Shown one piece after another: positions 4,794 to 8,596 of a stretch of 21,263 nucleotides of DNA. The notes under the pieces are model-generated. The model saw only the letters and a list, made by a program, of their open reading frames with translations. It ran no database searches and was not told the DNA's origin. The position numbers were made by a program, and so were the translations under genes. The stretch covers positions 1-21,263 of the IMG/VR virus record IMGVR_UViG_3300044516_000308; one strand, 5' to 3'. The stretch comes from a virus. Within the stretch, counting starts at the first letter, position 1, and each line of letters begins with the position of its first letter.

Positions 4794-5379
4794 ACGAGTT
4801 AAAAGAGGTAAATATGTAAAAAGTGGAACAGCACCACAGTTAGAGCCTTTATCTGAAGAAGCACAACAAATGTTATTGTCTAATAATGAAAAAAAAAGGC
4901 TAAGGAAAGAACAAGCACAAGAAATGGAAATATTAGATACCGAAGAAGTAAAACCTCAAGATTTTAAGAAAAAAACAGGTGCTATTAGAGGTAAAAAGAG
5001 TAGAAGTACAGTAGTTAGAGAAATATTAGACACTACTACTTATGGTAGAAACCCTTTAACTGGTACTGACGACCTTATTTCACAGGAATATAGAATTACA
5101 CTTGCTGTATTATCCAAAGCACTAAAAGGAGATGTAAATGCTTATAAAGCACTTATGGATAACGCATATAAACCTCACACACAAGAAGTTGACACTAAAA
5201 TACAAACTATTGATTTAAGTCAATTTAGTTTTGATGAATTAAGAGGTTTCTTAAAAGACCAAGATGATTATTTACCACCAAACTTATTAACAGATGGAAT
5301 TGGAACAAATGAACAACCTGCCTATCCAAGTGAGACAAGCACTGGAACTACAAGTGAGGGCGACATTAGCGAGAGATGA
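4783..5379 (+). CDS. terS: Probable small terminase subunit
   Basis: 198-residue protein immediately upstream of, and overlapping by 86 nt, the large terminase gene. Residues 1-75 are very basic (RRVKRGKYVKSG, later KKKTGAIRGKKSRSTVVREIL), as expected for DNA recognition. Residues about 98-130 form helices with the pattern SKALKGDVNAYKALMDNAY, which resembles the GD-containing core of many small terminase-like phage proteins. The last ~40 residues are polar and low in structure. Small terminases bind the packaging site on the genome and present it to the large subunit. The call rests on position plus this weak pattern, not on a strong motif. Confidence 0.65.
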   Translation: MKDRRVKRGKYVKSGTAPQLEPLSEEAQQMLLSNNEKKRLRKEQAQEMEILDTEEVKPQDFKKKTGAIRGKKSRSTVVREILDTTTYGRNPLTGTDDLISQEYRITLAVLSKALKGDVNAYKALMDNAYKPHTQEVDTKIQTIDLSQFSFDELRGFLKDQDDYLPPNLLTDGIGTNEQPAYPSETSTGTTSEGDISER

Positions 5380-6679
5380 TTTTTGGGAGTTTTGTAAAAT
5401 GTATGATAAGGATTTCTTTATAAAAAGACCTTTCTTACAAAAGATTGCTAAAGCGTTTATGTTAGTAGAACGTGGGGAAATTAAGTCATTATCGGTATCA
5501 TTACCTCCAAGGGGTGGAAAATCATACATTACCTCACTATTTTGTGCTTGGGCATTAGGCAGAAACCCTACAGAATCAGTAATGCGTAACACTTGTACTG
5601 CTACATTATTTCAAAAGTTCTCGTATGATGTTAGGCAGATAGTAAAGTCAGAAAAGTTTGCTATGGTATTTCCTGATGTAGAACTTTCATCTGATAAAGC
5701 CAATCTACAAGGTTGGAATACTAATAAATCACGACAAGTAGGTTATTTTGGAGCAGGGGTAGGTGGTACTATCATTGGTTTTGGTGCTACTATGTTGGCT
5801 ATTACCGATGACTTGTATCGTGGTATTGAAGATGCACTATCTGATGTAACTAACGATAGGATTCTACAATGGAAAGAGGGTACTCACGATTCTCGTCTTG
5901 AACGTAATTGTAAAAAGATTGATATAGGTACAAGATGGTCAACAAACGATGTTATAGGCAAAAATGTAACAAATAATGAGTACGATTTATCAATTATTGT
6001 TCCTGCATTAGACGAACATGAAAAATCTTTCTGTGAAGATGTAATGAGTACAGAACAATACTATGCTATACGTAAAAGAATTAACCCTGAAATATGGTCT
6101 GCTGAATATATGCAAGAACCAGTCGATTTAAAAGGTAGATTATTCTCTAACTTACGATTCATAGAGAAAAGTGATTTCGATGCAATTAAACACAAGGCAA
6201 GTGGCTCTGTTGCTTATATTGATGTATCAGATGCAGGTAGCGATTTTACTGCTATGGCGGTTGCTACAATCATTGACAAGGTAGTTTATATATCAGATTA
6301 TGTATTTAACAAAGGAAATACCGATGTAACTATTCCAATATGTGCTGAAAGAATAAACCGACTAAATGTAGTGTATTGTAGAGTAGAATCTAACTCAATG
6401 GGTGCTGTATTCGGCAGATTACTTCAAACTAAAGCAAGAAGGTGTAAAATATTAAAAGTACACAACACCCAAAATAAGATTACAAGAATAATTATGCAAT
6501 CTTCTACAATTATCAACTCATTTGTCTTTGTAAAGCACGATACTAACGAATACCACCAATTTATGAATAACCTATTAAGTTTCTCTAAAGAAGGAAAAAA
6601 CAGAAATGATGATTCACCCGATTGTCTTGCAGGTTTGAGTATGTTTTTAAAATCTTTATTCAAAAAGTTGGAATTGTAA
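5294..6679 (+). CDS. terL: Large terminase subunit (packaging ATPase-nuclease)
   Basis: 461-residue motor protein that cuts genome concatemers and pumps DNA through the portal. The ATPase domain has a Walker A variant PPRGGKS at residues 71-77, a Walker B MLAITDD at 167-173 and a GTRW coupling motif at 212-215. The C-terminal RNase H-fold nuclease domain shows AYIDVSDAGSD at 307-317 (Asp310), VESNSMG with Glu365, and the acidic cluster NDDSPD at 438-443. Length is typical of HK97-like terminases. The first ~28 residues are encoded inside the end of the small terminase gene in another frame; an internal ATG at 5309 would shorten this overlap. No intron or frameshift is seen. A terminator follows at 6744. 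Confidence 0.95.
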   Translation: MELEQMNNLPIQVRQALELQVRATLARDDFWEFCKMYDKDFFIKRPFLQKIAKAFMLVERGEIKSLSVSLPPRGGKSYITSLFCAWALGRNPTESVMRNTCTATLFQKFSYDVRQIVKSEKFAMVFPDVELSSDKANLQGWNTNKSRQVGYFGAGVGGTIIGFGATMLAITDDLYRGIEDALSDVTNDRILQWKEGTHDSRLERNCKKIDIGTRWSTNDVIGKNVTNNEYDLSIIVPALDEHEKSFCEDVMSTEQYYAIRKRINPEIWSAEYMQEPVDLKGRLFSNLRFIEKSDFDAIKHKASGSVAYIDVSDAGSDFTAMAVATIIDKVVYISDYVFNKGNTDVTIPICAERINRLNVVYCRVESNSMGAVFGRLLQTKARRCKILKVHNTQNKITRIIMQSSTIINSFVFVKHDTNEYHQFMNNLLSFSKEGKNRNDDSPDCLAGLSMFLKSLFKKLEL

Positions 6680-6743
6680 TTATTCTTACTAATTTTGAAT
6701 CGTTTTCCAATGGCTACTGCCTTTAATTGCTTTCTTTAAAATT

Positions 6744-6769
6744 CCCCTCTAACAAAGAGGGGTTTTTTT
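6744..6769 (+). terminator. Rho-independent terminator after terL
   Basis: Perfect 7-bp stem CCCCTCT (6744-6750) / AGAGGGG (6756-6762) with a 5-nt loop, followed by seven T residues. It lies 65 bp after the terL stop and separates the packaging operon from the non-coding interval. Confidence 0.9.
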
Positions 6770-6786
6770 ATTTAAAAAGATATTTG

Positions 6787-6794
6787 TATATTTG
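6787..6794 (+). promoter_or_regulatory. Candidate -7 promoter box, upstream copy
   Basis: TATATTTG matches the Bacteroidota -7 box TAnnTTTG. The expected -33 position falls in the T-tract of the preceding terminator and has no clear TTG, so this is weaker than the next promoter. Transcription would start near 6798 and run to the terminator ending at 6970. Confidence 0.4.
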
Positions 6795-6845
6795 TAAAAG
6801 ATACCACGAATATCTAAACTTATTGCTTTTTTTATTCTTAAATAA

Positions 6846-6875
6846 TTGTTATATCAAAAATAATTGTTAGATTTG
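6846..6875 (+). promoter_or_regulatory. Bacteroidota promoter for the small RNA candidate
   Basis: TTG at 6846-6848 and TAGATTTG at 6868-6875 with 19-bp spacing match the Bacteroidota promoter pattern. The start site is predicted near 6879, exactly where the first hairpin of the downstream RNA begins. No protein gene follows before the terminator at 6933-6970, so the likely product is a short RNA. ATAATTGTTA is repeated at 6842-6851 and 6860-6869, around the -33 position and in the spacer. Confidence 0.6.
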
Positions 6876-6878
6876 AAT

Positions 6879-6970
6879 ATCTAAAGTAGAGGTTAGATGG
6901 TTCTTGTAAAATTTTTCAATTAAATAATACTGCCCCTTTCTTATCCTCTACTAAAGATTGGGGTTTTTTT
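6879..6970 (+). ncRNA. Candidate ~92-nt RNA with two complementary hairpin loops
   Basis: Between the promoter at 6846-6875 and the terminator ending at 6970 there is no plausible protein frame. The predicted transcript begins with hairpin 1: stem ATCTAA (6879-6884) / TTAGAT (6893-6898), loop AGTAGAGG (6885-6892). It ends with the terminator hairpin, whose 11-nt loop (6943-6953) contains CCTCTACT (6945-6952), the exact reverse complement of loop 1 over all eight bases. The two loops could kiss within one molecule or join separate molecules. Lying between terL and the portal gene, a packaging-RNA-like role is conceivable, as is attenuation or antisense-type regulation. The first stem is weak (one G-C pair), and nothing here proves the RNA exists. 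Confidence 0.45.
6933..6970 (+). terminator. Rho-independent terminator of the small RNA candidate
   Basis: Stem CCCC (6933-6936) / GGGG (6960-6963), a 2x2 T-T internal loop, then TCTT (6939-6942) / AAGA (6954-6957). An 11-nt loop closes it and a seven-T run (6964-6970) follows. The stem is less regular than the other terminators in the window, and its loop is complementary to the loop of the upstream hairpin at 6879-6898. Confidence 0.7.
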
Positions 6971-7027
6971 ATGCCCTAAATTTTATTAGGTGTTGTATCT
7001 CATTGTACATCTTTATCAAAAATAATG

Positions 7028-7196
7028 GCTCAAAACGAATGCTTACTTAATACGAAACCCTGCTCTGTTCTACGCTTAACAACAGGTACTGCATTTCCGA
7101 AAGGATAAATAAATAAAGTAAGTAACCCAAAATGCCTAAACCGAAAGGTTGAAGATAATAAGAAAAGGTCGCAGAGGGAAGTGTCGTTTATTGGGC
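7028..7196 (+). other. G+C-richer, foldable non-coding segment, possible structured RNA
   Basis: No convincing protein gene. The segment is visibly richer in G+C than the surrounding intergenic DNA. A long-range helix can form between 7028-7038 and 7184-7196, with two bulges and one G-U pair. Inside it are a 7-bp helix CTTACTT (7042-7048) / AAGTAAG (7116-7122), a hairpin CTGTT/AACAG around 7063-7085, and two hairpins capped by GAAA tetraloops: TCC-GAAA-GGA at 7096-7105 and AACC-GAAA-GGTT at 7139-7150. GNRA loops and the G-U pair exist only in the plus-strand RNA, which favours that strand. It matches no RNA family I can name, and no clear promoter lies directly in front of it. Confidence 0.35.
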
Positions 7197-7199
7197 TTG

Positions 7200-7250
7200 A
7201 TTAATATATCTCTTATATTAATAAAATACTGTGCTTATCTAATGCAGTAT
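7200..7250. repeat. Two adjacent perfect dyads
   Basis: ATTAATATA (7200-7208) / TATATTAAT (7214-7222) is a perfect 9-bp inverted repeat with a 5-nt spacer. It is followed at once by ATACTG (7226-7231) / CAGTAT (7245-7250), a perfect 6-bp inverted repeat. They may be the 3' end of a structured RNA reading rightward, or protein-binding sites. No T-tract follows, so they are not standard terminators. Confidence 0.45.
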
Positions 7251-7270
7251 AATAGCGATAGCATATCCAA

Positions 7271-7306
7271 CAAATAAAAAATGCGAGAAACATAAAGAAT
7301 CTCGCA
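7271..7306 (-). terminator. Rho-independent terminator of the portal gene (minus strand)
   Basis: A perfect 7-bp stem TGCGAGA (7282-7288) / TCTCGCA (7300-7306) with an 11-nt loop. Read on the minus strand it is followed by a T-rich run (complement of 7271-7281, TTTTTTATTTG). It lies 23 bp beyond the portal stop codon and blocks portal transcription from running into the RNA region. On the plus strand it lacks a T-tract. Confidence 0.85.
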
Positions 7307-7329
7307 CTAATTATAAGTTTAATTGTTTT

Positions 7330-8562
7330 TTATTTATAAACCCCCTTTTTTAATCCTAAGAATACTTTCTTTTCTTCATCAGATAAAGTTATACCTAATT
7401 CTTGTTCAATTTTAATCAATGCAGATGCTCTGTAATCGAACCCTTGTGATTCTTGTAAGTAATCTTTTTGCAAAACAGGTAAGTGTTCGTAATCTGCTAC
7501 TAATCGTAACCCTTCTTTCTCTAATCCTAATTGTTCAGTAATGTTATTATAGATATGTTCTGCTTCGGGTATTATAGTTGTAGTATAAGCCAATCTCTCC
7601 CCATAATTAACGTTAGAATACGTTGAACCACTCTCATTGGAGAAAATATAGTAGTTAAGTCCAAAAGCATCTATAATCGCAAGTTTATCTGCTTTAAGTT
7701 CATCAAATAACATTAAATCTTTTGTAGGGAACGACATTGGTGTCCATTTAACATCAGATTCAGAAATTATCAACTCGTCTTTACTTCTGTTGTACCAATC
7801 TCTTTGTATTTGCTCACGTTCTTCAGGAGACATAGGCAAAGCACCACCCAAGTCAGAGTTTACTGCTGATAAGATACCAATAGCACCAATATTTTCTAAA
7901 AGCACATTACGTTTGTTGTATTGAGCCTTAATATTTGATAATGGGTATTTTAAACTTTCTATTTTAGATACAGAATTTAAGATATTAACACCATCAGTTG
8001 TTTGAATGATAATAACTTCGTCATTTGTTAATAACTCTTTGTTGTCTTCGTTAAAATTATATACGTAATCTTTGATTAATCCACCTTTTTCCATCTGTTT
8101 TAATGAACGACCTGATGTATTAATCTGTACTTTGTGAGTAGCAAGTGGAACAAATAAATTAACTATACCAAAACTTCTTTTTGGTGCGTAACACAATGCT
8201 GTAGAGTATAAACTATCATTAACTGATATTGAGTATATTACATCTTGCCAAGATTGCATAGGGTTAGGGTTTTTAATCAAATCCAGTACCCAATGTGATT
8301 CTACTTCTGAACCATCAGATTCTTTTATAAGTCTTGGTTTACCATTTGCCAACATTTGAGCCTTTTTATCTACAACTGTTCGTAATTCAGGTATTTCAAT
8401 ATACGCTTTGAATGGTTTTGAAGTGTCCAACCATATAGCAGTTTTTTTACCATAGAAGTCGTGTTGATAAGCACGAGTGGTATCAAATAAGTCAGAAATA
8501 TTCCTAATAGGCTTTTTTATTTCAGTTCCAAAGAAAGCATTCCAAAAAGAAAGTGTACTCAT
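7330..8562 (-). CDS. HK97-type portal protein, encoded on the opposite strand
   Basis: 410-residue portal protein, counted from the ATG at 8562; a TTG at 8586 would add eight residues and lies inside the promoter region. Portals form the dodecameric ring at one head vertex through which the terminase pumps DNA and to which the neck attaches. Typical HK97/SPP1-like segments are present: an early PELRTVVDKKAQMLA helix, LIKNPNPMQSWQDVIYS, and the stem/crown region LAIIDAFGLNYYIFSNESGS followed by STYSNVNYGERLAYTTTIIP. Length is normal for HK97-like portals and no frame break is seen. Oddly, this is the only gene on the minus strand; it has its own terminator (7271-7306) and a promoter candidate (8597-8604). 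Composition matches its neighbours, so recent foreign origin is not indicated. Confidence 0.93.
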   Translation of the reverse strand: MSTLSFWNAFFGTEIKKPIRNISDLFDTTRAYQHDFYGKKTAIWLDTSKPFKAYIEIPELRTVVDKKAQMLANGKPRLIKESDGSEVESHWVLDLIKNPNPMQSWQDVIYSISVNDSLYSTALCYAPKRSFGIVNLFVPLATHKVQINTSGRSLKQMEKGGLIKDYVYNFNEDNKELLTNDEVIIIQTTDGVNILNSVSKIESLKYPLSNIKAQYNKRNVLLENIGAIGILSAVNSDLGGALPMSPEEREQIQRDWYNRSKDELIISESDVKWTPMSFPTKDLMLFDELKADKLAIIDAFGLNYYIFSNESGSTYSNVNYGERLAYTTTIIPEAEHIYNNITEQLGLEKEGLRLVADYEHLPVLQKDYLQESQGFDYRASALIKIEQELGITLSDEEKKVFLGLKKGVYK

Positions 8563-8575
8563 AATAAATTTTTTA

Positions 8576-8583
8576 TATTTTTG
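8576..8583 (+). promoter_or_regulatory. Rightward promoter box for the protease-capsid unit
   Basis: TATTTTTG matches the Bacteroidota -7 box and is followed by CAATATTAAAG; no clear -33 TTG is seen. Transcription would start near 8587, giving a leader of about 24 nt before the protease ATG at 8611. Confidence 0.55.
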
Positions 8584-8596
8584 CAATATTAAAGAA

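Follow-up and report, generated by a model that had tools for sequence, protein, structure and literature searches.

In this study, we describe a predicted RNA of about 90 nt (from ~6880 to ~6970) whose opening hairpin carries a loop exactly complementary to part of the apical loop of the RNA's own terminator, an architecture that is conserved among related phages and maintained by covariation of the two loops. The RNA lies between the genes for the large terminase subunit (terL) and the portal in a 21.3-kb virus record with Bacteroidetes-type promoters, from an uncultured phage; the whole stretch of 21,263 nucleotides was analysed and is called the window below. We consider the element to be probably (a chance of roughly 55%) the leader or attenuator belonging to a small accessory cassette, itself an insertion at the junction where terL and portal converge. 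Judged by sequence comparison, it seems to represent a new style of RNA-based control and not a part of the DNA-packaging motor.

Architecture of the element

Direct reading of the plus strand located the promoter (6846–6875) as the preliminary description had given it, with a TTG at 6846–6848, a 19-nt spacer and a -7 box, TAGATTTG, at 6868–6875. In Flavobacterium, the sigma-A -7 box TAnnTTTG occupies positions -12 to -5 (PMC9723704), a spacing that puts the predicted +1 of the window at about 6880, at the foot of the 5′-terminal hairpin. This hairpin (6879–6898, plus strand), read from the sequence and recovered by our loop scan, consists of ATCTAA (6879–6884), the loop AGTAGAGG (6885–6892) and TTAGAT (6893–6898). 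A linker (6899–6931, plus strand), unlike that of other members in alignments, leads to the terminator; the spacing between hairpin and terminator is approximately 45 nt. The intrinsic terminator (6932–6970, plus strand; direct reading and scan) comprises an outer stem, CCCC (6933–6936) with GGGG (6960–6963), an inner stem, TCTT (6939–6942) with AAGA (6954–6957), an apical loop (6943–6953) that holds CCTCTACT at 6945–6952, and a T-run (6964–6970). Both loops lie where they had been reported, and their reported complementarity over all eight bases proved exact on comparison of AGTAGAGG with CCTCTACT. Neither AGTAGAGG nor its complement has any further copy in the window.

In the minimum-energy fold of the window RNA (RNAfold), the two loops are merged in one long-range stem (−17.3 kcal/mol), compared with −15.3 kcal/mol for two separate hairpins, and the isolated loop–loop duplex amounts to about −10.9 kcal/mol. 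Because the long-range stem is preferred, we consider long-range pairing as well as kissing. Complementarity ends at about the loop edges in the relatives L022–L024, and pairing is essentially limited to the loops in the HNH leaders described below, which speaks for contact between the loops and against a long stem arising by accident; the complementarity of L004 reaches further, into a stem of 15 bp. The stretch 6870–6980 folds better than its shuffles (z = −3.0) and the 95-nt RNA alone modestly so (z = −0.9), a value so small that folding energy by itself proves nothing.

The window also holds an apparently orphaned promoter and hairpin at 6787–6815 (plus strand), with a -7 box, TATATTTG, at 6787–6794 and the hairpin AGATA-CCACGAA-TATCT. 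The partner of its loop CCACGAA, namely TTCGTGG, is absent from the vicinity on the plus strand of the window and present in L004. This suggests a remnant of an older, L004-type leader whose partner loop was lost in the window, and points to leader exchange by recombination, perhaps at T-rich tracts.

Covarying loop pairs in related phages

We scanned relatives for hairpins whose loop could pair with that of a terminator further downstream. At the same junction, the plan of the window, including its 5′-terminal hairpin, recurs in four of them, L004, L022, L023 and L024, with the loop pairs CCACGAA/TTCGTGG, ATACCAG/CTGGTAT, CCACTAC/GTAGTGG and CTGGAAC/GTTCCAG, respectively. In these four and in the window, a TAnnTTTG box sets the predicted +1 at the foot of the 5′ hairpin, within 1–2 bases. 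The variable leaders are not alignable with MAFFT, so the loop pairs were compared directly. All 35 of 35 pairs across the five RNAs are Watson–Crick, and every loop position varies on both sides. The true assignment of loops to partners ranks first among 120 permutations (the runner-up reaching 31 pairs), and off-diagonal combinations attain no more than 5 of 7 pairs. The preliminary description had proposed to look among terL–portal relatives for loops that change together and so stay complementary, which is what the five RNAs display. L023 and L024 have diverged at 8 of their 14 loop positions, compared with 7 of 75 positions in the remainder (Fisher p=1.7e-4, for this one sequence pair); pairing specificity seems to be under pressure to change. 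Scanner matches in L038/L039, L051, L078, L079 and others were dropped because they have no promoter, and a candidate in L231, of 6 nt only, was judged too weak.

When whole contigs of the relatives were scanned, the plan was found away from terL in L222 and L223, and a pattern search added L243, L245 and L246. These five homologous leaders stand directly upstream of HNH homing-endonuclease genes, assigned as NUMOD4-HNH by Pfam in L222 and L223 and read as HNH by eye in the other three. Their layout is GTAT-TGTCGC[T/A]G-ATAC, about 38 nt, and a terminator with the apical loop C[A/T]GCGAC, the ATG of the gene following shortly past the T-run. The window terminator shares their two-storey plan of outer stem, internal loop, inner stem and apical loop. 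All 110 of 110 cells are paired in the alignment of the HNH leaders (A4), in which both sides have changed at three pairs of the outer stem, two of the inner stem and one kissing pair (U-A to A-U); slid controls gave at most one double change. The loops of this group are nearly constant, with 1 of 7 positions varying. A sixth case of leader structure and terminator directly ahead of a gene is L230, where a DUF6291 gene is preceded by a 12-bp terminator hairpin whose apical loop GTGAGACC is complementary to the 5′ end GGTCTCAC, the leader's own 5′ hairpin being weak. The exact TAnnTTTG box precedes L223 and L230 only, the remaining HNH leaders having near-matches.

Two further observations concern such leaders. 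In L222 (6645–6690) and L223 (10910–10930), the terminator of the HNH leader contains an ATG in its left arm; that of L223 is in frame with the HNH gene and could belong to a leader peptide or serve as an alternative start. The cultured Polaribacter phages Danklef_1 (28558–28650 of L284) and Freya_1 (36630–36730 of L285) have leaders that are 98% identical, with a 7-nt complementarity, GGTGGAA/TTCCACC, between the 5′ region and the foot of the terminator, not its apical loop, and were kept only as a lead. This leader precedes a GIY-YIG gene in Danklef_1 and directly precedes an annotated transcriptional regulator in Freya_1; in Danklef_1, an endonuclease gene was apparently inserted right behind it.

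The terL–portal junction and its contents

The preliminary description correctly placed the element between terL (5294–6679, plus strand; Pfam PF22530) and the portal gene (7330–8586; Pfam PF04860), with the correction that the latter lies on the minus strand, inverted relative to terL and the protease gene, so that terL and portal are convergent. The same inversion relative to terL, protease and capsid genes is seen throughout the nearer clades (the window, L002–L036, L047, L049, L052 and L056); the portal is collinear in distant clades (L037–L048 and L057), which makes this a case of one packaging gene inverted within the structural module. By direct reading, the portal transcript has its own terminator hairpin at 7282–7306, with the T-run on the minus strand.

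Just past terL, the window has a short transcript unit (6690–6769, plus strand) with a box, TAATTTTG, at 6690–6697 and a bidirectional terminator at 6744–6769. In many nearer relatives, a TAnnTTTG box likewise stands just past the terL stop codon, with a terminator ~75–100 nt on; as a candidate for an RNA linked to terL, this unit is better conserved than the RNA at 6879–6970.

The terL–portal interval measures 656 bp in the window, L002 and L003, and 577 bp in L004. It shrinks to 95 bp in two relatives with near-identical motor proteins, L005 and L056 (TerL 98–99% and portal 99% identical), and terL and portal overlap by 2 bp (interval -2) in L034–L036 and L052. Alignment and interval lengths relative to the empty L005/L056 junction delimit the insertion in the window to approximately 6770–7325, the extra DNA sitting between the bidirectional terminator and the portal stop codon. 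Elsewhere, the junction holds NUMOD4-HNH genes (L009, by Pfam; L012 and L020, by inspection), other small reading frames (L040 and L041) or a different non-coding block (L022–L024). These empty sites and varied contents identify the junction as an insertion site for accessory cassettes ('morons'). On the minus strand of the junction in L009, L012, L013, L020 and L189, we observed a different leader of ~75 nt, GTGTGGA ... TCCACAC followed by a T-run, whose terminator takes its left arm from the 5′ end of the transcript; it stands ahead of small reading frames (HNH where checked).

In the window, the presumed payload past the leader terminator is a non-coding block of about 310 nt (6971–7281, plus strand) with no reading frame longer than 42 aa and no match in Pfam or Rfam. 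It is 93% identical to its counterpart in L004, equal to the flanking genes, and folds no better than shuffles. L022 (3150–3475, minus strand), L023 and L024 carry an unrelated non-coding block of ~290 nt, which has a z of −3.0 on the transcribed strand and is almost substitution-free over ~220 nt (alignment by inspection), adjacent to leaders that differ strongly; it is possibly a new structured RNA. Exact scans of viral contigs limited each of the two ~300-nt blocks to its own small phage group, and the L022 block gave short matches only in 395 genomes of one bacterial class.

Specificity of the architecture

The combination of a 5′ hairpin with a complementary terminator loop arose in none of 10 shuffles of the window. 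A stricter scan, which also required a promoter box and which misses the window itself through a G+C filter on its 6-base seed, gave no case in 2.16 Mb of shuffled loci. No promoter-bearing case was found in 1.0 Mb of other viral contigs picked for a similar 5′ hairpin, and a search for TATATTTG with the AGATA-N-TATCT hairpin pattern found no genuine case in the 1.0 Mb of other contigs. The HNH leader pattern with free loops retrieved nothing beyond the TGTCGC[T/A]G group. A covariance model of the HNH leaders gave six weak matches in the 395 genomes, which belong to one bacterial class and were drawn around a Bacteroidales MAG; these matches were mostly ordinary terminators, none was loop-complementary, and no convincing cellular homologue was found in this set. 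The window has no Rfam match at the gathering threshold, and relaxed thresholds yielded only sub-threshold matches for the window and L022 junctions, for which nucleotide searches of cultured phages returned only short matches.

Discussion

In the mechanism we propose, the element's own promoter would start a transcript whose first bases fold into a hairpin. About 45 nt later, the intrinsic terminator would form, and its apical loop would pair over 7–8 bases with the loop of the first hairpin, through a loop–loop kiss or an alternative long-range stem. By capturing the emerging terminator loop, the nascent 5′ hairpin would set the efficiency of termination, in either direction. Most transcripts would end as the ~90-nt RNA and some would read through into the payload, which would be a homing-endonuclease gene in several relatives and the ~310-nt non-coding block in the window. 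That the element is transcribed, and that pairing changes its termination, we infer from sequence patterns.

Several observations favour this leader or attenuator. One junction carries five independent, fully complementary loop pairs, each (in the window, L004 and L022–L024) with the predicted +1 at the base of the 5′ hairpin; the homologous HNH group has a covarying loop pair and covarying terminator stems; L230 repeats the idea ahead of a DUF6291 gene; and the empty sites reveal an insertable cassette. RNA-structure control of homing endonucleases is, moreover, established in phage T4 (PMC2988022). Against this reading, the payload is non-coding in the window, L004 and L022–L024, which leaves no obvious product to be set, the fold z of the window RNA is small, and the HNH group varies at a single loop position. 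A related proposal is that the released ~90-nt RNA acts in trans, either loop pairing with the identical RNA made by another copy of the phage, so that the two dimerise or a newcomer's cassette is forced to terminate, with loops that diversify and so avoid cross-talk. Divergence of the L023 and L024 loops ahead of their scaffold makes such self-specific action a live alternative, and the poor off-diagonal pairing, the orphan hairpin with its partner loop in L004, and the antisense-regulated pT181 attenuator, from which orthogonal sets have been engineered (PMC3753616), agree with it. We nevertheless think it unlikely, as intramolecular pairing across the ~45-nt linker should win over pairing in trans, the rate test concerns one sequence pair and the HNH-group loops hardly change. 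It is still less likely that the tied hairpins serve stability or insulation, protecting the small RNA or isolating the cassette, with read-through left unregulated. The members studied do have both a terminator and a hairpin near +1, and by inspection no other terminator separates the portal stop codon from the cassette in L022–L024, so that the cassette terminator could also end the portal transcript; stability, however, needs no loop pairing, and exact loop complementarity amid changing sequence would be left unexplained.

The preliminary description had likened the RNA to the packaging RNA (pRNA) of phi29, multimerising at the terminase–portal motor. Its paired-loop small-RNA unit is upheld by the covariation, and its position between terL and portal would suit such a role; the role itself is contradicted by the comparisons. 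The RNA belongs to an optional insertion that is missing from siblings with near-identical motor proteins (L005 and L056), which makes an essential motor part unlikely, and the junction in L034–L036 and L052 has no room for it. No copy was found elsewhere in the sequenced parts of the empty-site relatives, whose contigs are fragments. The homologous plan stands before HNH genes away from terL and portal, and TerL bears a T7-type RNaseH-like nuclease domain, unlike the phi29-type packaging ATPase. The loops of pRNA, moreover, pair by just 3–4 nt on an RNA with a three-way junction (PMC12670572, PMC5340915), and none is predicted in the window RNA, which forms two hairpins or one long stem. We therefore regard a packaging RNA as highly improbable, although the RNA may resemble pRNA in the narrow sense that its paired loops could dimerise; the evidence favours the ideas first offered as fallbacks, an attenuator or a trans-acting regulator. 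Hardly more credible is chance complementarity around an ordinary terminator. AT-rich DNA is rich in hairpins, and eight matched bases in short loops, at ~4e-5 per placement for the window alone, are not prohibitive genome-wide, but the match recurs with different letters in four relatives, a second group covaries, and neither the 2.16 Mb of shuffled loci nor, with a promoter, the 1.0 Mb of other viral contigs produced a case. Loop covariation refutes this explanation.

If confirmed, a leader or attenuator of this kind would add a regulatory RNA design based on mutual recognition between the beginning of a transcript and its own terminator loop, in Bacteroidetes-type phages, whose regulation is little known. 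It ties leaders of this type to cassettes for homing endonucleases and supplies sets of naturally occurring loop pairs that seem to be orthogonal, and the covariation makes the pairing directly testable by a simple transcription assay. More speculatively, and in our view doubtfully, the loops may constitute a hypervariable, self-complementary kissing-loop code in which each transcript holds both halves of its own recognition pair. Diversifying selection would then make the cassettes of related phages mutually deaf, amounting to self/non-self control of mobile endonucleases and non-coding payloads.

A limited search of the open-licence literature found no description of a 5′ hairpin loop that matches the apical loop of its own terminator, and several known systems share parts of the plan. 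Like phi29 pRNA, the element keeps two loops of a single RNA complementary through covariation, a feature common to other RNAs; it differs in having no three-way junction, in its longer pairing, in being optional to the genome and in being unlinked to motor genes. With the ornate phage RNAs ROOL and GOLLD (PMC12286853), it shares kissing loops in a phage non-coding RNA, and a ~300-nt block could be a structured RNA of that sort; the element itself is small and has no Rfam match, oligomers not being in evidence. In T4, the homing endonucleases I-TevI, SegB and MobE are restrained by RNA hairpins that hide the ribosome-binding site (PMC2988022). Here, too, a structured RNA immediately precedes a mobile phage endonuclease gene, but in this case an intrinsic terminator is involved, with a loop that pairs with the 5′-terminal hairpin, and a form lacking any endonuclease gene also exists. 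In attenuators of the pT181 type, the specificity of a hairpin loop is linked to a terminator (PMC3753616), and families with distinct loop specificities are possible in both systems. On the minus strand of the leader, no convincing antisense promoter was seen by inspection (the sigma-70 scan excludes Bacteroidetes promoters). The present element differs from the pT181 type in that the complementary loop lies within the same transcript, in the terminator itself.
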